Positions 52,760 to 62,008 of a stretch of DNA of 64,000 nt are shown one piece after another. The DNA is from Stigmatella aurantiaca DW4/3-1 (GTDB lineage Bacteria > Myxococcota > Myxococcia > Myxococcales > Myxococcaceae). Under the pieces are notes generated by a model. The model saw only the letters and a list, made by a program, of their open reading frames with translations. It had not been told where the DNA came from and did no database searches. The stretch is taken from contig NC_014623.1 of assembly GCF_000165485.1 (NCBI RefSeq), positions 8,264,893 through 8,328,892 on the forward strand, in the 5' to 3' direction. The number at the start of each line of letters is the position of its first letter. Within the stretch, counting starts at the first letter, position 1. The position numbers and the translations under genes are program-made.

Positions 52760-54139
52760 ATGAAGACCGAACTCCACTTCGACTGCGGCACCTTGGTTGC
52801 GCCGGCGCTGCCGGAAGATGGGCCCCTGCGCTCGCTCTTCCAGAAGGATGGGCGCACGGGCGTCTTCCGGGCGGCGGCCTGGCGCTACCGGGAGGTGGTG
52901 CTGCGGCTGCGCGAGCTGGCGACGCCTTATCAGGACCAGGCGCGGCGCTTCGAGCCCCTGGAGGTGGCGCTCACGGCCCCCATCGAGCCCTTCCCCCACC
53001 AGCGCGAGGCCCTGGAGGCCTGGACCCAGGCCGGAGGCCGGGGGCTGGTGGAGCTGCCCACGGGGGCGGGGAAGACCTTGCTGGCGGTGATGGCCATCGC
53101 CCAGGTGAAGCGGCCCACGCTGGTGGTGGTGCCCACGCTGGACCTGATGGCGCAGTGGCAGGCGGTGCTGAGCCGGCACCTGGGACTTCCGGTGGGGCTC
53201 CTGGGAGGCGGGGTCAACGACCGGCAACCGTTGACGGTGACGACGTACGACTCGGCGATGGCGCAGACGGAGTTCCACGGCAACCGGTTCGGCCTGCTCA
53301 TCTGCGACGAGTGCCACCACCTGCCCGCGCCCAGCTACCGCTTCATCGCGGAGGGCTCGCTGGCGCCCTACCGGCTGGGCCTGTCGGCGACGCTGGAGCG
53401 CGCGGACGGAGGCGAGCGCGTGTGCGAGGAGCTGCTGGGCCCCCGGGTGTACCGGGCGGACATCCGCGAACTCCAGGGGCGCTACCTGGCGCCCTACGAA
53501 GTCCGCCGCATCGAGGTGCCGCTGACAGCGGAGGAGAAGGCGCGGTACGACGAGGCCCGGGCCCGCTACCTGGGCTTCGTGCGCAAGAACGGCATCGCGC
53601 TGGGCTCTCCGGAGGGCTGGGCGCGCTTCCTCGCGCAGAGCCAGCGCAGCGACGAGGGGCGCGCGGCGTACCGGGGCTACCGGGAGCAGCGGCGCATCGC
53701 GTTGACCTCGAGCGCCAAGATGGAGGTGCTGTGGCGGCTGCTGCTGGAGCACCGCGAGGACCGTGTGCTCGTCTTCACCGACGACAACGAGACGGTGTAC
53801 ACGCTGGCGCGAAGGCTGCTGCTGCCCGTCATCACGCACCACACGCCGATTCCCGAGCGCAAGGCGCTCCTGGCGGCGTTCGCGAGCGGGGAACTGCCGG
53901 TGCTGCTCACCTCGCGCGTGCTCAACGAGGGGGTGGACGTGCCCGAGGCGCGCGTGGGGGTGGTGCTCAGCGGCAGCGGCAGCGTGCGCGAGCACGTGCA
54001 GCGGCTGGGACGCATCCTGCGCCAGCGCCCGGGAAAGCGCGCCCTGCTCTACGAGGTGTGCTCGGCACAGACGGCGGAGAGCGGCATCAGCGAGCGTCGG
54101 CGGCAACACCGCGCCTACCAGGAAGGTGAGCCGTGCTGA
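52760..54139 (+). CDS. XPB-type superfamily 2 DNA helicase
   Basis: 459 residues from ATG 52760 (GTG 52757 is the alternative). Similar in length to archaeal XPB. Walker A ELPTGAGKTLLAVM (about residues 102-115), motif II CDECHHLP (about 185-192), motif III LSATLERADGGE (about 213-224), a thumb-like insert, then motifs IV-VI: VFTDDNETVYTLARRLL, TSRVLNEGVDVPEARVG and SGSGSVREHVQRLGRILRQR. The RED motif of archaeal and eukaryotic XPB follows motif III and is RAD here. It overlaps the nuclease gene by 7 bases, forming the XPB-Bax1 pair. Confidence 0.9.
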   Translation: MKTELHFDCGTLVAPALPEDGPLRSLFQKDGRTGVFRAAAWRYREVVLRLRELATPYQDQARRFEPLEVALTAPIEPFPHQREALEAWTQAGGRGLVELPTGAGKTLLAVMAIAQVKRPTLVVVPTLDLMAQWQAVLSRHLGLPVGLLGGGVNDRQPLTVTTYDSAMAQTEFHGNRFGLLICDECHHLPAPSYRFIAEGSLAPYRLGLSATLERADGGERVCEELLGPRVYRADIRELQGRYLAPYEVRRIEVPLTAEEKARYDEARARYLGFVRKNGIALGSPEGWARFLAQSQRSDEGRAAYRGYREQRRIALTSSAKMEVLWRLLLEHREDRVLVFTDDNETVYTLARRLLLPVITHHTPIPERKALLAAFASGELPVLLTSRVLNEGVDVPEARVGVVLSGSGSVREHVQRLGRILRQRPGKRALLYEVCSAQTAESGISERRRQHRAYQEGEPC

Positions 54140-55347
54140 CGCGAGACCTGCTGCTCTTCCGCGTCCGGGAAGGCAAGCTGCGCCCCTCCTTCATCAAACG
54201 CGAGGACCCGGAGCTGCTGGCCCTGGCCACGGAGTTGGTGGCCGAGGTGGAGCGCGCCAGGGGCCAGACGCGGGATGAGCTGGAGGAAACCCTCGCCCTG
54301 CGCGCGGGCGCCTTCGCGCGGCCCAAGATCGCGCGCGGCTTGGTGAAGTTGCTGCTGGACCGGGCCCTGTTCGACGAGGCCACCGAAGGCGCCGCGCAAG
54401 CACGCTGGGAACACTTCCAGACGGCGGCCCGGGTGCTGCGGACGTTGCCCCCCGAGGCCCCGGTGGGGCTGTACGAGGCCCGGCTCGCGGAGGCCTTGCC
54501 AGCCCCCCTGGAAGAAGTCCGCGAGGCGCTCTACGTGGACCTGCCCGGCCACCGGCGGCTGCTCGACTGGGAGACGCTCACGCCGCCCGAGCTGCTGGAC
54601 CGCTACAACCTGGCCCTGGCCCAGGGCCCGCTGATGGGCGCGCGGCGGCTCACGTTGCGCGCGCGGGCCCCCGGGCTGCTGCGGGTGCGCAAGGTGCTTC
54701 GGTGGCTGAAGTTCTGCCGGCTGGTGGCGGAGGTGCGGCGGGAGGGCGACGACTGGGCGCTGGAGGTGGAGGGGCCCGGGGCGGTGCTGTCCCTTCAGAA
54801 GAAATACGGCCTGCAACTCGCCAGCTTCTTGTCGGTGGTGCCGGTGCTGGAGCGCTGGGAACTGGCCGCCGAGGTGGACGCCCACGCGCGCCGCCGGGTG
54901 ATGCTCGTGCTGGACCAGAGGGATCCGCTGGTCTCTCCCCACCCCTCCGCGCTGGGCCACATCCCTCCCGAGGTGGCCACGCTCGCGCAGGGCTTCGAGG
55001 ACGCGGAGTGGGCGTTGGATCTCACCCCTTTGCCGCGCCACATGGGCGCCTCCGGCCTGTGCGTGCCCGACCTCACCTTCCGCCATCAGCAGACGGGGCG
55101 GGAGGTGGCGCTGGAGCTCTTCCACGCGTGGCACGCGGGCCCCTTGGCCCGGCGGCTCGCGGAGCTGCGCTCGAGACCGGATCCCCTGCTGCTGCTCGGG
55201 GTGGACCGGGCGTTGACGCGAACCGGGGAACGGGAAGAGCTGGAAGCCCACCCGCAGGTCGTCCTTTTCAACGGCTTTCCCTCCGCACGCAAGCTGCGCG
55301 AGCGGCTGTCCAAGCTCGGCGAGCCGCCTCCCTCCGCGGCCCCCTGA
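54133..55347 (+). CDS. DUF790 family nuclease (Bax1, XPB partner)
   Basis: 404 residues from GTG 54133, inside the last codons of the helicase. The N-terminus MLTRDLLLFRVREGKLRPSFI is the DUF790 hallmark, followed by a helical region (about residues 30-140). The C-terminal nuclease domain shows LEVEGPGAVLSLQKKYGLQLA (about 210-230) and VCVPDLTFRHQQTGREVALELFHAWH (about 307-335), in which PDLTF and ELFH give the Asp and Glu of a PD-(D/E)xK-like site. Archaeal Bax1 is a structure-specific nuclease recruited by XPB. Confidence 0.9.
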   Translation: MLTRDLLLFRVREGKLRPSFIKREDPELLALATELVAEVERARGQTRDELEETLALRAGAFARPKIARGLVKLLLDRALFDEATEGAAQARWEHFQTAARVLRTLPPEAPVGLYEARLAEALPAPLEEVREALYVDLPGHRRLLDWETLTPPELLDRYNLALAQGPLMGARRLTLRARAPGLLRVRKVLRWLKFCRLVAEVRREGDDWALEVEGPGAVLSLQKKYGLQLASFLSVVPVLERWELAAEVDAHARRRVMLVLDQRDPLVSPHPSALGHIPPEVATLAQGFEDAEWALDLTPLPRHMGASGLCVPDLTFRHQQTGREVALELFHAWHAGPLARRLAELRSRPDPLLLLGVDRALTRTGEREELEAHPQVVLFNGFPSARKLRERLSKLGEPPPSAAP

Positions 55348-55359
55348 GGTCCGCGGACG

Positions 55360-55728
55360 TCAGCCGCCGCGAGGACGGAAGTTCGACGCCAGGACGCTGA
55401 GCAGGCGGATGGCGCTGCGGTCCAGCTGGCGGGCGCGGCGCATGAGCCTGCGCAGCTCCGCGGGCTCGCCGGCGTCGGAAGGTGGCTCGGCGGCCCACTT
55501 CACGTCCTGCGAGGGCTTGAGGCCCAGCGCTTCGTCCGCGGAGATGGAGAGCACCACGCACAACCGGCGGAAGGTTTGGATGCTTGGCAGCATGTGGCCG
55601 CGCTCCAAACGGCCGTAGACTTCGCTCGCAATACCAATGCGCTCAGCGACGTCGGCCTGCGTGAGATTGAGGCGCTGTCGAGCGAGGCGAGCAGCCGCGC
55701 CGAGCCTGGCTGCGAGGGTCTTTTCCAT
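55360..55728 (-). CDS. XRE-family helix-turn-helix transcriptional regulator
   Basis: 122 residues from ATG 55728; the frame is open to 55785 but that part lies in the divergent promoter. The Cro/C1-type HTH spans about residues 8-65: LAARLGAAARLARQRLNLTQ, ADVAERIGIASEVYGRLERG, then PSIQTFRRLCVVLSIS. A charged tail with an RRAR-rich helix follows. DNA-binding regulator of unknown target; the divergent receiver-like gene is the first candidate. Confidence 0.9.
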   Translation of the reverse strand: MEKTLAARLGAAARLARQRLNLTQADVAERIGIASEVYGRLERGHMLPSIQTFRRLCVVLSISADEALGLKPSQDVKWAAEPPSDAGEPAELRRLMRRARQLDRSAIRLLSVLASNFRPRGG

Positions 55729-55853
55729 ATTCGTTAACCCACCGGGTTCGCCTATGTCGATATGACTTGCAGGGTTGGCTTCCAAGAACTCGGCAGGTAG
55801 GCTCGTACGGATATGACCAGACGAGTCACATGGCGGAACGAGGTGTGGACGGT

Positions 55854-56264
55854 ATGGTTCGCGTGAAAATGCCCTGCTTCCTCTTCGTGGATCAGAACCC
55901 GCTCTGGCTGTCGGCGCTGGGACGCGCGACGCGCGATCTTCCAGGCTCCAAGCTCCTCGCCCGCAGTGCGGAAGAAGCGCTCAACCTGCTACGTCTCCAT
56001 GCGCCCGAAGTCGTCGTCAGCGGCTACTGCCTGCCGGAAGTGGACGGGCTGAGCCTGCTGGAACAGATGATGGACCTGGATCCCCGGGTGGCGTGCGTGC
56101 TGCACACGGCACAGCCTCCCGAGCTGCTGCGCAGCGCACGGGGCATCGCGCTGGTGGAGAAGGCCTCCCCTCCTGGGACGCTCCAGTCCGTCCTGCGAGC
56201 GCTCTACATCGCGCTCACTGGACAGCTTCCGGCATCCCCTGGAGAAAAAACCGGCGGCGCTTGA
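55854..56264 (+). CDS. Degenerate response-regulator receiver domain protein
   Basis: 136 residues from ATG 55854, which has GAGGTG 8 bases upstream. The receiver pattern is VKMPCFLFVDQNPLWLSALG, VVVSGYCLPEVDGLSLLEQ, VACVLHTAQ and IALVEKASP. The phospho-acceptor Asp is replaced by Gly (SGYCLP), although the conserved Lys (EKA) and the DG turn remain. It is thus a pseudo-receiver that cannot be phosphorylated in the usual way. No output domain. Divergent from the XRE regulator; convergent with the thioesterase. Confidence 0.8.
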   Translation: MVRVKMPCFLFVDQNPLWLSALGRATRDLPGSKLLARSAEEALNLLRLHAPEVVVSGYCLPEVDGLSLLEQMMDLDPRVACVLHTAQPPELLRSARGIALVEKASPPGTLQSVLRALYIALTGQLPASPGEKTGGA

Positions 56265-56311
56265 CTCGAGCAGGACCTATCAGGTCCACAGGCCACCGCT
56301 GACCCCTGAGA

Positions 56312-56336
56312 GGGGGCCACGGTCCCCGGGCCTCCC
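56312..56336. terminator. Hairpin between the pseudo-receiver and thioesterase genes
   Basis: GGGGGCC (56312-56318) pairs with GGCC-T-CCC (56329-56336, one bulged T) over a 10-nt loop. A second small hairpin, GGACCT/AGGTCC (56273-56287), lies just upstream. No U-tract. The two genes are convergent, so this is a plausible shared end. Confidence 0.35.
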
Positions 56337-56340
56337 CCCC

Positions 56341-57135
56341 TCAAGCCGTCAGGGGGGACCAGCGGAGCAACGAACGCTCGAGCGCCTCGCGCAAGTCGTC
56401 CGCCGCCGTGTGCATGAAGAAGTGCTCCCCGGGGAAGACCTGGAACGAGAAATCCGTGGAAGTGAGATCCTTCCACCCCGCCACCACATCGGGCATGGCG
56501 TGAGGGTCCCTCTCCCCAGCGAAGGCGCTCAATGGAACGGGGAGCGGAGACTCATCGATGACCTTATAGGTATCCACGATCTCGAAGTCGGCGCGCAGCA
56601 TGGGCGCCAGCATCTCCATGAGATCCTTGTGGGCGAGCACCTGAGCCGGCGTGCCGCCGTACTGCTCCAGTGCCTCGATGAACTCCTTCTCCGGAAGCGC
56701 GTACAGCGGACGGGCCTTCCTGCGTCCCGGAGGGGCGCCCGCGGCCACCAGCAGTCCCAAGGGCAGCGGAGCACCCTCGCGCAGCAACCAGCGCGTCACC
56801 TCCACGGCGACGAGCGTGCCCATGCTGTACCCGAAGAAAGCAAACGGGCGATCCGCCAGGGAGCGCACCACGGGCCCCAAGGCCGCGGCCATGGTCCGAA
56901 CATCCCGGAAGAGCGGCTCACCGAAGCGCGTCTCCCGCCCAGGGTACTGGGCGGCCAGCACTTCCACACCGGGGATTTGCTCCGCCCAGCGCTGCATGGC
57001 CGAAGCAGTCCCTCCCGCAAAGGGGAAGCACAACAGACGCAGACGCGCGTCCGCCCGCGTCTTCCCATAGGGAAACCAGGTCTTCACACCGGGGTTGGCG
57101 GCGTTTCCAACTCCCTGAACGGCTTTGTTGCTCAT
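56341..57135 (-). CDS. Type II thioesterase (alpha/beta hydrolase)
   Basis: 264 residues. The GrsT/RifR-type pattern is clear: LRLLCFPFAGGTASAMQRWAEQ (about residues 31-52), the nucleophile in FFGYSMGTLVAVEV (Ser about 105), Asp in AFAGERDPHAMP (about 214) and His in FPGEHFFMH (about 241). These enzymes clear stalled or wrong acyl groups from polyketide and non-ribosomal peptide assembly lines. No such assembly line is in the window, so this is an orphan or serves a distant cluster. An N-terminal extension of about 20 residues (MSNKAVQGVGNAANPG) is present. Confidence 0.9.
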   Translation of the reverse strand: MSNKAVQGVGNAANPGVKTWFPYGKTRADARLRLLCFPFAGGTASAMQRWAEQIPGVEVLAAQYPGRETRFGEPLFRDVRTMAAALGPVVRSLADRPFAFFGYSMGTLVAVEVTRWLLREGAPLPLGLLVAAGAPPGRRKARPLYALPEKEFIEALEQYGGTPAQVLAHKDLMEMLAPMLRADFEIVDTYKVIDESPLPVPLSAFAGERDPHAMPDVVAGWKDLTSTDFSFQVFPGEHFFMHTAADDLREALERSLLRWSPLTA

Positions 57136-57168
57136 GGAACCACTTCGTACTTCAACCCGCGCGGTGCG

Positions 57169-57435
57169 TCACGGGGTCGCGAGGAGGGTCATGGCTTGGG
57201 AATTACAGGGGAAACCCCCGACTTCACTCTCCGTCTGGGGCATGGGATTGATTCGCGGCCTGACCCGGTGCATCATGTCCGCCATTCGATTGACCCCACG
57301 ATGACGAACGCCCTGCCCCACTTCGAGCAGACCCCGTGCCTGGCCATGAGCCAGGGCGAGCGTTCCACCGTGCAGGCCCTCGTCCTCGTAGTAGGCGGAG
57401 AGCTCCTTCTTGCGCGCCTTCTTGCGCATGGGGGC
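57169..57435 (-). CDS. Questionable small frame antisense to the ilvB leader
   Basis: A possible 88-residue product beginning MRKKARKKELSAYYEDEGLHG. Its first 20 codons almost all end in G or C, as in true genes here, but later ones do not. It lies exactly opposite the Leu/Val-rich leader frame and the antiterminator segment, so the basic and Tyr-rich start is the complement of CTT and GTA codons. No family is recognised. I prefer the leader as the real element. Confidence 0.25.
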   Translation of the reverse strand, partial: APMRKKARKKELSAYYEDEGLHGGTLALAHGQARGLLEVGQGVRHRGVNRMADMMHRVRPRINPMPQTESEVGGFPCNSQAMTLLATP

Positions 57436-57450
57436 GGGCCGCCGTTCTGA
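57346..57450 (+). CDS. Putative leader peptide of the ilvBNEC operon
   Basis: 34 codons from ATG 57346 (an in-frame ATG at 57301 would give 49). The control region reads ALVLVVGGELLLARLLA (57376-57426), with Leu and Val codons CTC GTC CTC GTA GTA and then CTC CTT CTT, CTT CTT. GTA and CTT are rare in this genome, so their use here looks selected. The frame ends HGGGPPF-stop; the GGG GGC GGG codons are the antiterminator segment. Stalling at Leu/Val codons when these amino acids are scarce would favour antitermination. The ribosome site is weak. Confidence 0.55.
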   Translation: MSQGERSTVQALVLVVGGELLLARLLAHGGGPPF

Positions 57451-57496
57451 GTCGGGAGAAATCCTCCCCAGGCCGGAACGAATCAGCCCCGCCCCC
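57430..57496 (+). promoter_or_regulatory. Antiterminator pairing segments of the ilv attenuator
   Basis: GGGGGCGGG at 57430-57438 is perfectly complementary (9 bp) to CCCGCCCCC at 57488-57496, which includes the left arm of the terminator hairpin. The two structures exclude each other. The upstream segment lies at the end of the leader frame, where a ribosome moving on to the stop codon would cover it and allow the terminator to form. Confidence 0.55.
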
Positions 57497-57522
57497 GGAA
57501 ACGGTGGCGGGGTTTTCGTTTT
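57487..57522 (+). terminator. Intrinsic terminator / attenuator before ilvB
   Basis: CCCCGCC (57487-57493) pairs with GGCGGGG (57506-57512). Inside, CCG-GAAA-CGG (57495-57504) continues the stem past one C/T mismatch and closes with a GNRA-type GAAA loop. A T tract (TTTTCGTTTTT) follows directly. It stands 38 bases before the ilvB start. A terminator between promoter and first gene of a biosynthetic operon is the mark of attenuation. Confidence 0.8.
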
Positions 57523-57560
57523 TCGGCTCCCAAAAACCCGTGATTCGCAGTGGAGACGCA

Positions 57561-59387
57561 ATGACGAGACCTGGTGCAAGTCCCAAGACAGAGCAGCTCA
57601 CCCCGGGAAGCGGCCTTTCCCCGAGCGGTTCCACACCCGAGCGCGTGCCGGGCACGGCGAAGTGCACGGGGGCGGAGATCGTCTGGGATGTCCTCGCCAG
57701 CGAGGGCGTCGACGTGGTCTTTGGCTATCCGGGCGGGGCCATCATGCCCATCTACGACGCCATGCATCAGCGGTCGATCCGCCACGTCCTCGTGCGCCAC
57801 GAGCAGGGGGCGGCCCACATGGCGGATGGCTACGCCCGTGCCTCGGGCAAGGTCGGTGTGTGCCTGGCCACCTCGGGGCCTGGCGCCACCAACCTGGTCA
57901 CGGGCATCGCCACCGCGATGTTGGACTCCTCGCCCATCGTCTGCATCACCGGCCAGGTCTCCTCCTCGCTCCTGGGCAGCGATGCCTTCCAGGAGGTCGA
58001 CATCACCGGCGTCACCCTGCCCATCACCAAGCACAACTACCTGGTGACGCGCGCCGAGGACATCGCCCCCACCCTCCGGGAGGCCTTCTTCATCGCCCGC
58101 TCGGGCCGCCCGGGTCCGGTCCTCGTGGACATCACCAAGGACGCGCAGCAGGCCACCACCGACGCGGCCCTGCCCCCCCGTCCCGTGCTGCGCTCCGGCT
58201 ACCGTCCCGACCTCAGCCCCTCCGAGGCGTCGCTGGAGCGCGCCGCCGAGCTCATCGCCGCCGCCGAGCGGCCCCTCATCTTCTGCGGCCACGGCATCGT
58301 CAAGGCCGAGGCCAGCGCGCTGCTGATGGAGCTGGTGGAGAAGACGGGCATTCCGGTGGCGAGCACGCTGCTGGGCCTGGGCGCCTTCCCGGCCCTCCAC
58401 CCCCTCAGCCTCGGCATGATGGGCATGCACGGAGAGGCCTGGGTCAACAACTCCATTCAGGAGTCCGACCTGATCATCGCGCTCGGGATGCGCTTTGACG
58501 ACCGGGTGACGGGCAACCTGAAGACGTTCGCGCGCAAGGCGAAGAAGATCCACGCCGAGATTGATCCGTCGGAGGTCAACAAGAACGTCACCGTGGACGT
58601 GGCCCTGACGGGAGACCTGCACAAGACGCTCACCGGACTGCTTCCCCGCATCCAACGGCGCACCTGCACCCGGTGGGTCGAGCACATCAACTCGCTCAAG
58701 GGAACGGCCTCGGTGCGCGACATCCAGTACATGCCGCACAACGGCCGGCTCCACGCCGCGCACGTCATCCACGACCTGTGGTGGTTGACCCAGGGCAAGG
58801 CCACGATGGTCACCGATGTGGGGCAGCACCAGATGTGGGAGGCGCAGTATTACCGCCACGAGCGCCCGCGGCAGCTCATCACCTCGGGCGGCCTGGGCAC
58901 CATGGGCTTCGCGCTGCCGGCCGCCATCGGCGCCCGGTTCGCCAAGCCAGAGGAAGAGATCTGGCTGGTGGTGGGGGATGGAGGCTTCCAGATGACGGCC
59001 TCCGAGCTGTCGACCTGTGCCCAGGAGGGCATCAAGCTCAACGTGGCCATCATCAACAATGGCTACCTCGGCCTGGTGAGGCAGTTGCAGCAGCTCTTCT
59101 ACGACAACCGCTACAGCGCCACCCCGCTGCACAACCCTGACTTCGTGAAGCTCGCCGAGGCCCATGGGTTGATGGGCCTGCGCGTCAGCAGGCGCGAGGA
59201 GATCCCCGACGCGGTGGCCCAGGCCCGGAGCAGCCCCGGCACCACCGTCATCGACTTCCGCGTGGAGCAAGAGGACGTCGTCTACCCCATGGTGCCAGCG
59301 GGCGCGGACCTCGACGACATGATCCGGCGCCCCGAGCCTGGCAACGAGGCGCAGGGAACCCGGCAATGGACCAGCGGAGCCGTCTGA
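57561..59387 (+). CDS. ilvB: Acetolactate synthase, large catalytic subunit
   Basis: 608 residues from ATG 57561, with GGAG 6 bases upstream; an open frame further upstream only reflects the leader region. It makes acetolactate or acetohydroxybutyrate from pyruvate with ThDP, FAD and Mg. N-terminal VFGYPGGAIMPIYDAM and HEQGAAHMADGYARASG (with the catalytic Glu) lie about residues 55-95. C-terminal ThDP motif: VVGDGGFQMTASEL...NNGYLGLVRQ (about 470-510). The first ~35 residues (TRPGASPKTEQLTPGS) are a non-conserved extension. First gene of ilvBNEC, under the attenuator. Confidence 0.97.
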   Translation: MTRPGASPKTEQLTPGSGLSPSGSTPERVPGTAKCTGAEIVWDVLASEGVDVVFGYPGGAIMPIYDAMHQRSIRHVLVRHEQGAAHMADGYARASGKVGVCLATSGPGATNLVTGIATAMLDSSPIVCITGQVSSSLLGSDAFQEVDITGVTLPITKHNYLVTRAEDIAPTLREAFFIARSGRPGPVLVDITKDAQQATTDAALPPRPVLRSGYRPDLSPSEASLERAAELIAAAERPLIFCGHGIVKAEASALLMELVEKTGIPVASTLLGLGAFPALHPLSLGMMGMHGEAWVNNSIQESDLIIALGMRFDDRVTGNLKTFARKAKKIHAEIDPSEVNKNVTVDVALTGDLHKTLTGLLPRIQRRTCTRWVEHINSLKGTASVRDIQYMPHNGRLHAAHVIHDLWWLTQGKATMVTDVGQHQMWEAQYYRHERPRQLITSGGLGTMGFALPAAIGARFAKPEEEIWLVVGDGGFQMTASELSTCAQEGIKLNVAIINNGYLGLVRQLQQLFYDNRYSATPLHNPDFVKLAEAHGLMGLRVSRREEIPDAVAQARSSPGTTVIDFRVEQEDVVYPMVPAGADLDDMIRRPEPGNEAQGTRQWTSGAV

Positions 59388-59399
59388 GGACACGCCACC

Positions 59400-59942
59400 A
59401 TGACCCCCCAACCGCCCCCCCGCACCTTCATCGTCCACGTCGAGGATCGCCCCGGCGTCCTCAGCCGCGTCATCTCGCTCTTCCGGCGCCGGGCCTACAA
59501 CATCGACTCACTCACGGTGGCCAACACCGAGAACGCGTCTCTCTCCCGCATCACCCTGGTGATGGCGGCGGATGAGCGCGAAGCCCGGCTGCTGGAGGCC
59601 AACCTCTACAAGCTCATCGAGGTGCTCTACGTGGAGCACGCCACCCCCCAGGGCCAGGTGAGCCGCGAGCTGGCGTTGATCAAGGTGCGCGCCAGCGAGG
59701 AGACGCGCCCCGCGGTGTTGCAGGTCTGCGAGGTGTTCCGGGCCCGCGCCATCGACGTGACGCCGACCTCGATGGTGATGGAGCTCACCGGCGCCCCCGA
59801 CAAGATCGACGGCCTCATCGAGATGTTGCGTCCCCACGGCATCATTGAACTGGCGCGCACCGGCACGGTGGCCATGGCGCGGGGCCCGCAATCCCCGCTC
59901 ACGGCCCTGCTGGAAACGCCTCCCCCCGGAAAAGCCGCCTGA
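59400..59942 (+). CDS. ilvN: Acetolactate synthase, small regulatory subunit
   Basis: 180 residues, 12 bases after ilvB. The N-terminal ACT domain starts RTFIVHVEDRPGVLSRVISLFRRR and contains NIDSLTVANTEN, where valine binds for feedback control. The second half (ASEETRPAVLQVCEVFRARAID; RPHGIIELARTGTVAMARG) is the IlvN/IlvH C-terminal domain. The longer form (IlvH-like) fits the large subunit it accompanies. Confidence 0.95.
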   Translation: MTPQPPPRTFIVHVEDRPGVLSRVISLFRRRAYNIDSLTVANTENASLSRITLVMAADEREARLLEANLYKLIEVLYVEHATPQGQVSRELALIKVRASEETRPAVLQVCEVFRARAIDVTPTSMVMELTGAPDKIDGLIEMLRPHGIIELARTGTVAMARGPQSPLTALLETPPPGKAA

Positions 59943-59992
59943 GCGGCAGCGCGGAACAGAAGCCACCCGCAACAGGAAACGAGACACGAATC

Positions 59993-60913
59993 ATGGACTG
60001 CAAATACATCTGGATGAACGGGAAGCTGTTACCTGGAAACGAGGTGCAGTTCCCTTTCATGACCCCCGCGATGCACTACGGCATGGCGGTCTTCGAGGGC
60101 ATCCGGTGTTACCGCACGGCCAAGGGGCCCGCCATCTTCCGCCTGCGCGAGCACATCGAGCGGCTGCACAAGTCCGCGCTGGTGCTGGGCTGGCGTGAGC
60201 TGCCCTTCTCGGTGGGACAGCTCAGCGAAGCCTGCCTGGAGACGGTGCAGGCCAACGGCCTCGAGGAGTGCTACCTGCGTCCACTCCTCTTCCTCGCCGG
60301 CGGCGGGTGGAACCTCAACATCGATGGCGGCCAGGCCCACGTGGGCATCGCCGCGTGGCCGTGGAATGCCTACCTCGGCCCGGATGCCGCCGAGCGCGGG
60401 GTGAGGGCCAACGTCTCCTCCTATACCCGCCACCACCCCAACGTGGTGATGACCAAGGCGAAGATCGCCGGCAACTACCCCAACTCCTTCCTCGCCAAGA
60501 CCGAGTCGGTCCGCCTCGGCTTCGACGAGGCGATCATGCTCGATGCCCAGGGCCTGGTGGCCGAGTGCACGGGCGCGAACCTCTTCATCGTCAAGGGCAA
60601 CCGGCTGCTGACGCCCCCCGATGCCCAGATCCTCGAGGGCATCACCCGGGAGACGGTGATGATCCTCGCCCGGGACATGGGCCTGGACGTCAGCGCCCAA
60701 CCCATCTCGCGCGACCAGCTCTACCTGGCGGACGAGGTCTTCGTCACCGGCACGGCCGCCGAGGTCGCCGCCCTGAGGGAGATCGACTTCCGCGCCATCG
60801 GCCAGGGCCGTACCGGCCCCATCACCCGGAAGCTCCAGCAGGCCTACCACGCCGCCGTCCGGGGCGAGTTGCCCCGCTCCGCCGAATGGCTGACCTACCT
60901 CCCCAGCAAGTAG
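59993..60913 (+). CDS. ilvE: Branched-chain amino acid aminotransferase
   Basis: 306 residues, a fold-type IV PLP enzyme; last step of Leu, Ile and Val synthesis. Motifs: MHYGMAVFEGIRCY (about residues 24-37), the catalytic Lys in VMTKAKIAGNYPNSFLAKTE (about 151-170), and EILEGITRETVMILARDMG (about 213-231); Lys also near. The end has VFVTGTAAEVAALREID. It is inserted between ilvN and ilvC, an order less common than ilvBNC. Confidence 0.95.
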   Translation: MDCKYIWMNGKLLPGNEVQFPFMTPAMHYGMAVFEGIRCYRTAKGPAIFRLREHIERLHKSALVLGWRELPFSVGQLSEACLETVQANGLEECYLRPLLFLAGGGWNLNIDGGQAHVGIAAWPWNAYLGPDAAERGVRANVSSYTRHHPNVVMTKAKIAGNYPNSFLAKTESVRLGFDEAIMLDAQGLVAECTGANLFIVKGNRLLTPPDAQILEGITRETVMILARDMGLDVSAQPISRDQLYLADEVFVTGTAAEVAALREIDFRAIGQGRTGPITRKLQQAYHAAVRGELPRSAEWLTYLPSK

Positions 60914-60982
60914 CCCAGAAACCTTCATGTCCCAGGACACACTCCCGTAGCCCCCCCCTCTCTCACCACAAGGAATACCCCC

Positions 60983-62008
60983 ATGACGACCATCTATTAC
61001 GACAAGGATGCTTCCCTGGACCCCATCCGCGCCCGCCGGGCCGCGATCATCGGCTACGGCAGCCAGGGCCACGCCCACGCCCTCAACCTCAAGGAGTCCG
61101 GGGTGGACGTGCGGGTGGGCCTGCACGCGGCCAGCCGCTCACGGGCCAAGGCCGAGGCGGCGGGGCTCAAGGTGATGACGGTGAGCGAGGCGGCCCAGTG
61201 GGCCGACCTCATCATGATCCTGGCCCCGGACCAGACGCAGAAGCAGATCTACGACGCGGACATCGCTCCCCACCTCACCAAGGGCAAGGCGCTGTTCTTC
61301 GCCCACGGCTTCAACATCCACTATGGGCAGATCCGCCCCCCGGCGGACGTGGACGTGATGCTCATCGCCCCCAAGTCGCCCGGCCACCTCGTGCGCCGCC
61401 TCTACCAGGATGGCAAGGGAACGCCGGCGTTGATCGCCATTCACCAGGACGCCACCGGGCAGGCGCGGGCGCTGGGCATGTCCTACGCGCGCGCGCTCGG
61501 TGTGACGCGGGCGGGCCTGCTGGAGACCACCTTCAAGGAGGAGACCGAGACCGACCTCTTCGGTGAGCAAGCCGTGCTCTGCGGCGGCGTGACGGCCCTG
61601 GTGCAGGCCGGCTTCGACACGCTGGTGGAGGCGGGCTACCAACCCGAGAGCGCCTACTTCGAGTGTCTGCACGAGCTCAAGCTCATCGTGGACATGATGT
61701 ACGAGGGCGGCATGGGCTGGATGCGCCACTCCATCAGCGACACCGCCGAGTACGGCGACTACACGCGGGGGCCGCGCCTCATCAACCAGGCGGTGCGCGA
61801 GGAGATGCGCAAGGTGCTCAAGGAAGTCCAGACCGGCGTCTTCGCGCGCGAGTGGATCCTCGAGAACCAGGCGGGCCGCCCCGTGTTCGACAAGCTCCGC
61901 GAGCAGGGCAAGCAGCACCCCATCGAAGACGTGGGCCGCCGTCTCCGGGAGATGATGTCCTGGATCCGCGACGCCAAGAAGGACTCGAGCGACCCGTCCG
62001 CGCGCTGA
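60983..62008 (+). CDS. ilvC: Ketol-acid reductoisomerase (class I)
   Basis: 341 residues, normal class I length. It isomerises and reduces acetolactate with NADPH. Rossmann motif [20 protein letters not shown] (about residues 18-37), NADPH-loop ASRSRAKA (about 48-55), [12 protein letters not shown] (about 107-118), the Mg-binding [12 protein letters not shown] (about 190-201) and the C-terminal knotted [17 protein letters not shown] (about 227-243). AAGGAAT precedes the ATG. No ilvD or leu genes follow, so the rest of the pathway is elsewhere. Confidence 0.97.

Follow-up and report, generated by a model that had tools for sequence, protein, structure and literature searches.

The ilvB-ilvN-ilvE-ilvC genes of Stigmatella aurantiaca DW4/3-1 are directly preceded by a leader region that very probably controls them as a classical (trp-type) ribosome-mediated transcription attenuator. 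This reading is built on three conserved sequence elements: an open frame with clustered rare leucine and valine codons, an antiterminator arm located in the last codons of that frame, and an intrinsic terminator that shares the other arm. The best reading is thus a known kind of switch, ribosome-mediated attenuation, here in myxobacteria, and the results below provide comparative evidence for this type of control of branched-chain amino acid genes in these bacteria.

The ilvBNEC locus

The genome is a single contig of 10,260,756 bases, of which a stretch of 64,000 bases (hereafter, the window) was analysed; positions refer to the window, and all features of the ilvB locus lie on the plus strand. 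The operon consists of ilvB, encoding the acetolactate synthase large subunit (57561-59387; TIGR00118, E 5e-221), ilvN, encoding the small subunit (59400-59942; NF008864), ilvE, encoding a branched-chain aminotransferase (59993-60913; NF005146, TIGR01122), and ilvC, encoding ketol-acid reductoisomerase (60983-62008; NF004017, TIGR00465). The ilvB start codon and the bases just before it are conserved in five relatives aligned with the S. aurantiaca locus. The ilvB frame is also open upstream of this ATG, through the terminator and into the leader region (57336-57560, with an ORF from 57336), and automatic gene calls may therefore misplace the ilvB start.

Upstream of the leader, a promoter-like element occupies 57248-57276, with a -35-like TTGATT (57248-57253) separated by 17 bases from a -10-like CATCAT (57271-57276). 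A -10-like hexamer ending 23-24 nt 5' of the leader ATG is present in nine of 12 close relatives and paralogues, S. aurantiaca included, and a stricter promoter scan upstream of the leader detected no promoter; we take the element as weak evidence, at the sequence level, for a promoter of the leader. This survey of spacing covered 26 leaders, with the starts of L143 and L146 not located. Among the 14 more distant leaders that were examined, seven have TTGACA-type elements ending 6-11 bases 5' of the ATG, so leader transcripts there may be nearly leaderless; TTGACA-like and -10-like elements close to the ATG were found in L091, L092, L093, L142, L145, L014 and L052.

The leader frame and the alternative RNA structures

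The leader ORF (57301-57450) comprises 49 codons (MTNALPHFEQTPCLAMSQGERSTVQALVLVVGGELLLARLLAHGGGPPF), and its peptide runs from MTNALPHF, at an ATG at 57301, to VLVVGGELLLARLLAHGGGPPF, followed by a TGA stop at 57448-57450; the start and the C-terminus are conserved in relatives. A preliminary description of this DNA had proposed the same frame, with its Leu/Val codons and rare GTA and CTT, and all of these were recovered, while the start that it had placed at 57346 was rejected, since an in-frame internal Met stands at that place in four of 12 close leaders. The start is most likely 57301: all 12 close leaders have an in-frame ATG-ACG-AAC/ACC (MTN/MTT) start, the script having looked for that start.

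Codons for branched-chain amino acids (BCAA) are not enriched over the whole leader (13 of 49, p 0.26) and are clustered toward its end (11 of the 26 final codons, p 0.016). In the core of the leader 10 of 16 codons specify Leu or Val (p 0.0005, for a stretch picked after looking), and the presumed regulatory Leu/Val codons lie chiefly at 57379-57423. When compared with 46 crudely called genes of the window, the choice of codons is unusual: CTT makes up four of the nine leader Leu codons against 51 of 1931 (2.6%) in the window genes (p 6e-5), and GTA two of the four Val codons against 15 of 1366 (1.1%; p 7e-4). In relatives the runs of BCAA codons are kept while the leader peptide drifts.

Downstream of the frame, an intrinsic terminator at 57487-57523 consists of a hairpin (57487-57512) of the form CCCCGCC-C-CCG-GAAA-CGG-T-GGCGGGG and a U-tract (57513-57523; TTTTCGTTTTT). 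Its predicted energy is -23.7 kcal/mol (z -3.2), and 37 bases separate the U-tract from the ilvB ATG at 57561. The 5' arm of the antiterminator, GGGGGCGGG (57430-57438), lies inside the last leader codons, and its 3' arm, CCCGCCCCC (57488-57496), overlaps the 5' arm of the terminator; over these nine bases the two are exactly complementary. By itself a 9-base match is only modestly unlikely: when the final 60 bases of the leader were shuffled 5000 times, 71 shuffles reached it, so that the comparison with relatives decides. The stretch 57424-57498 as a whole folds at -42.9 kcal/mol (z -3.45), with none of 200 shuffles as good, and within it the inner part of the antiterminator (57439-57480) forms a helix of 57443-57449 with 57474-57480 that encloses a hairpin just past the leader stop. 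When 57424-57525 or the whole leader was folded alone, the terminator state was obtained.

The GNRA-loop terminator with its U-tract before ilvB, which exceeds its shuffles, and the 9-base antiterminator that excludes it from within the last leader codons had both been put forward in the preliminary description, and we find them as it gave them. It had also called the attenuator complete. Leader, antiterminator and terminator bear this out; the protector (anti-antiterminator) is a candidate at 57394-57443, in which 57394-57398 would pair with 57439-57443 and 57402-57407 with 57430-57435, and although this is the minimum-energy fold of that segment, its z of -0.73 is no better than that of shuffles, which makes "complete" slightly too strong a word.

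Distribution of the leader in the phylum

At E 1e-40, 14 of the 58 genomes searched in the family gave an IlvB match, as did, at E 1e-60, 36 of the 179 searched in the phylum. A leader of the same design stands upstream in 18 of the 30 ilvB loci examined, and all 18 leaders end in G-x-G-P-P-(F/T/S/V)-stop. The 12 loci without it are L148-L155 (seven from family f3, one from f21), three of genus g20, and L144 (f28); eight of them were read by script and by eye, and L095, L096, L150 and L155 by script alone. A second, 49% identical IlvB-like match (L097) lay outside the script reading, and six further IlvB matches without a locus were left out.

From a separate set of 80 loci, 77 were scanned by script, L032, L055 and L068 having too little upstream sequence, and 15 were read by eye. 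The design was found in five of the 77 (L004, L006, L014, L025 and L052), a count that leaves aside weak script matches in L023, L028 and L045. L004 represents the contig and leader of L145/L185, and the leaders of the other four end in AAA-type codons. Another eight of the loci read by eye have no leader of the design. Upstream of ilvB in L008 and L009 we observed BCAA-rich leaders whose structure is unrelated to the S. aurantiaca design, with an antiterminator in L008 formed by GCGGGGACCAGA and TCTGGCCCCCGC; from their sequence, these leaders apparently represent an independent ilvB attenuator.

With the nucleotide sequence as query and a threshold of E 0.01, 21 of 58 genomes gave matches; those below 1e-10 were confined to eight genomes, two of these with two each, and weaker matches were taken as chance. 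A search with a GAAA-type leader pattern matched seven of 195 genomes, which did not exceed the result of a control with the reversed pattern. We used a covariance model built from the 18 ilvB leaders and two leuA leaders. In the 10.26-Mb genome of S. aurantiaca it recovered exactly two places at E up to 10, the ilvB leader and a leuA leader. In the phylum, using filters that lose weak matches, it recovered 22 places, spread over 19 of 195 genomes; 20 of these places had served to build the model, and all 22 lie directly before ilvB, leuA or ilvC. Of the two new places, L162 precedes leuA in a congener and L174 precedes ilvC-leuACDB in a genome from another family; the leader of L174 ends in LVLVVLISGCGPP and a stop. 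Comparison with Rfam gave no match for 54000-62000 of the window at E up to 1; for 11 loci, searched to the same limit, it gave two matches, both unrelated and below gathering, and for six loci at the gathering threshold it gave none.

Conservation and covariation

To the 18 ilvB leaders of GPP type and the two leuA leaders we added the four AAA-type leaders, which gave a set of 24 sequences that includes S. aurantiaca and leaves out L004. Against dinucleotide shuffles, the antiterminator stretch has a mean z of -4.21 (24 of 24 below -1) and the terminator a mean z of -3.82 (24 of 24 below -2); the sequences are related, so that these are not 24 independent tests. Conservation in relatives, which the preliminary description had named as a check, is thus borne out by the 18 of 30 ilvB loci with a leader and by two structures that exceed shuffles throughout the set.

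The outer antiterminator helix was aligned in the 20 GPP-type sequences, 19 of them distinct. In this alignment 95.2% of cells are paired, compared with 90.2% in shuffles (0 of 500 as high) and at most 68% in slid registers. One of the nine pairs changes on both sides (U-A in nine and G-C in eight of the 19 distinct rows) and five are invariant; a C-C mismatch occurs in six of the 19, the leuA copy of S. aurantiaca among them. When arms were swapped among 18 representatives, the native pair was better (0 of 20000 permutations), an effect that was lost among the distant relatives alone (4994 of 20000, not significant); the covariation of the outer helix in these sequences is therefore real, but mainly one clade-level change, a contrast between two clades. 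An inner antiterminator helix of at least five pairs is present in 24 of 24 folds and appeared by eye to covary, a claim that we dropped because its swap test was not significant (1108 of 20000). Applied to the 20-sequence alignment, RNAalifold lets the arm fold on itself as a hairpin, together with part of the terminator, instead of forming the antiterminator; such an arm hairpin may exist in ribosome-free RNA. Three of the four AAA-type leaders, which are more distant, contain the arm 8-mer GGGTGCGG in a different reading frame, and the fourth has GAGTGCGG; this persistence across differing reading frames argues that the arm is conserved as RNA.

The Gly-Pro-Pro end of the leader peptide

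The G-P-P end is present in 22 of 22 GPP-type leaders, some of which are nearly identical. In their Gly-Pro-Pro codons the six first and second positions are invariant and all three third positions vary, which is the pattern of an amino-acid constraint. A GxGPP end with codon-periodic variation was observed in L083-L093, L140-L143, L145-L147, L128, L129, L162 and L174. In distant relatives the region has a likeness to a lipobox (e.g., LISSGC), which is probably fortuitous.

According to PMC5021804, ribosomes that pause at runs of proline when EF-P is lacking raise termination at a terminator further downstream, and PMC8129111 describes altered read-through when Pro-Pro motifs are put into a his leader. 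On a speculative view that we hold to be rather unlikely, the GPP end would be a brake that holds the ribosome at consecutive prolines over the antiterminator arm, making termination the default and allowing the switch to read EF-P or proline status as well. Against such a brake, the GPP codons lie partly inside the predicted antiterminator and the related group of leaders ends in AAA; RNA pairing may explain part of the GPP conservation.

The leuACDB copy

The second leader copy in the S. aurantiaca genome precedes leuACDB on the minus strand (L002 1480-1760; L181 3532-8189) and is 74% identical to the first; its leader, MTNLASTLELTPRPATNRGVRPLVQVRVSVVARVAGLLLGALLLLLAHGAGPPF, ends in LLLGALLLLLAHGAGPPF and a stop. 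In five loci (L180, L183, L184, L185 and L186) ilvB-ilvN-(ilvE)-leuACDB form one run, with one leader per genome according to the model, whereas in three genomes of the S. aurantiaca genus (G000, G038 and G121) leuACDB stands apart from ilvB and each of the two has a separate leader copy before it. A single element would serve ilv and leu where these are joined in one run, and two copies occur in the three congeners that have them apart. G030 and G046 keep ilvB, and neither LeuA (E 1e-40) nor LeuC (E 1e-20) was found in them; G015 and G120 gave no IlvB at E 1e-60 and no close LeuC (G120 has one 31% identical match). Within one genus, represented by these seven genomes, close ilvB and leu genes are accordingly both present, present as ilvB only, or both missing, and branched-chain amino acid synthesis looks patchy on this gene content.

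In a tree of 12 leaders the three leuA copies cluster together, with a support of only 0.87. After each other, the undivided leaders are the nearest to the leuA copies of S. aurantiaca and G038 (up to 83% identity). The share of Leu among Leu, Val and Ile in the 20 codons before the arm is 21 of 32 in the leuA copies against 17 of 33 in the ilvB copies from those genomes (p 0.32, not significant), and against six of 21 in the two genomes without a close LeuA (p 0.012). The codon counts suggest, from few lineages, that the leuA copies were retuned toward leucine. If this is true, the duplication of the element when ilv and leu parted, with a leuA copy leaning to Leu, would be a natural experiment in attenuator retuning. 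Myxococcus xanthus DK1622 is described in PMC8538405 as auxotrophic for leucine, isoleucine and valine, and would thus be a convenient host in which to test the switch by supplying these amino acids in controlled amounts.

Proposed mechanism and alternative explanations

Under the classical model, scarcity of Leu- or Val-tRNA would stall the ribosome on codons 27-37, which start 51 to 21 bases 5' of the arm. The stalled ribosome would leave 57430-57438 free to pair with 57488-57496 while the polymerase passes, and with the antiterminator formed, the terminator could not form and ilvBNEC would be transcribed. With plentiful amino acids, the ribosome would reach the stop at 57448-57450 and cover the arm; with the footprint size that we assume, a ribosome at the stop would occupy about 57430-57461, the arm included. 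The terminator would then form and transcription would end near 57520. The last two CTT codons start only 12 and nine bases from the arm, and stalling there would partly mask it. The paralogous copy would act likewise on leuACDB, with more leucine codons.

A look-alike ilvB leader of Streptomyces is reported to depart from the classical scheme, and we infer the regulation here from sequence. In Streptomyces coelicolor, according to PMC1262725, regulation was unaffected when codons of a similar ilvB leader were changed. With this precedent, and with BCAA codons that are clustered yet not enriched over the whole S. aurantiaca leader, the region could be an attenuator-like leader whose control is not codon-specific and consists, for example, of general coupling to translation or growth rate or of access to the start codon, with constitutive partial termination at the terminator. 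We judge this clearly unlikely, since the rare Leu/Val codons are concentrated just before the arm and the BCAA runs persist while the peptide drifts. The lean of leuA copies to Leu and of the leaders of the two genomes without close LeuA/LeuC to Val argues in the same direction, from few lineages, and is limited by the lack of a significant difference between leuA and ilvB copies within the same genomes.

The leader might instead serve mainly to produce a small terminated RNA, or a peptide, that acts in trans, with ilvB expression being secondary: in rich medium, termination would yield an RNA of roughly 240 nt, and the Gly-Pro-Pro codons vary at third positions alone. The position of every one of the model places directly before ilvB, leuA or ilvC argues for action in cis, and we consider a trans-acting role very improbable. 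Chance, namely a random open frame with inverted repeats in a GC-rich region where the 9-base match alone does turn up among shuffles, has a negligible probability given the conservation across families, the leuA paralogue and the two structures that exceed shuffles in all 24 sequences. We thus retain the classical ribosome-mediated attenuator as the preferred reading.

Comparison with known systems

The preliminary description knew of no detailed account for myxobacteria, and our literature search likewise found no description of such an attenuator in them; the surveys Vitreschak 2004 and Lopatovskaya 2010 lie outside this search, so that an earlier prediction is possible. In the main text of PMC4833913, neither "ilv" nor "Myxococc" occurs.

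The closest likenesses are with leaders of other phyla. PMC10272879 and PMC11857589 describe reporter or mutational tests of the Corynebacterium ilvBNC attenuator (ilvB-II motif), which resembles the present leaders in having an Ile/Leu/Val-rich uORF, a terminator and an antiterminator upstream of ilvB; it belongs to another phylum, and the present leaders match no Rfam family, although Rfam may not include ilvB-II. In Actinobacteria, ilv attenuation by BCAA leaders has been predicted, and the ilvB leaders of Streptomyces and Mycobacterium likewise have an ORF with Ile/Val/Leu runs and a terminator before ilvB; in those leaders the terminator hairpin reportedly shares sequence with the ORF (PMC1262725), whereas here it is the antiterminator arm that overlaps the ORF. 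The ilvB-OMG motif, said to stem from various phyla, and the ilvB motif of Leptospira are also RNAs before ilvB with a BCAA-rich uORF (PMC10272879). The present leaders differ in matching no Rfam model, though Rfam may not include either motif.

Ribosome-mediated attenuators are known for the enterobacterial ilvGMEDA, ilvBN and leuABCD operons. Like these, the present leaders combine a frame rich in Leu, Val and Ile codons with an antiterminator and a terminator that exclude each other ahead of the first gene; unlike them, the arm lies in the last codons of the frame, the peptide has a GxGPP(x) end, and one element is present in paralogous copies before ilv and leu.
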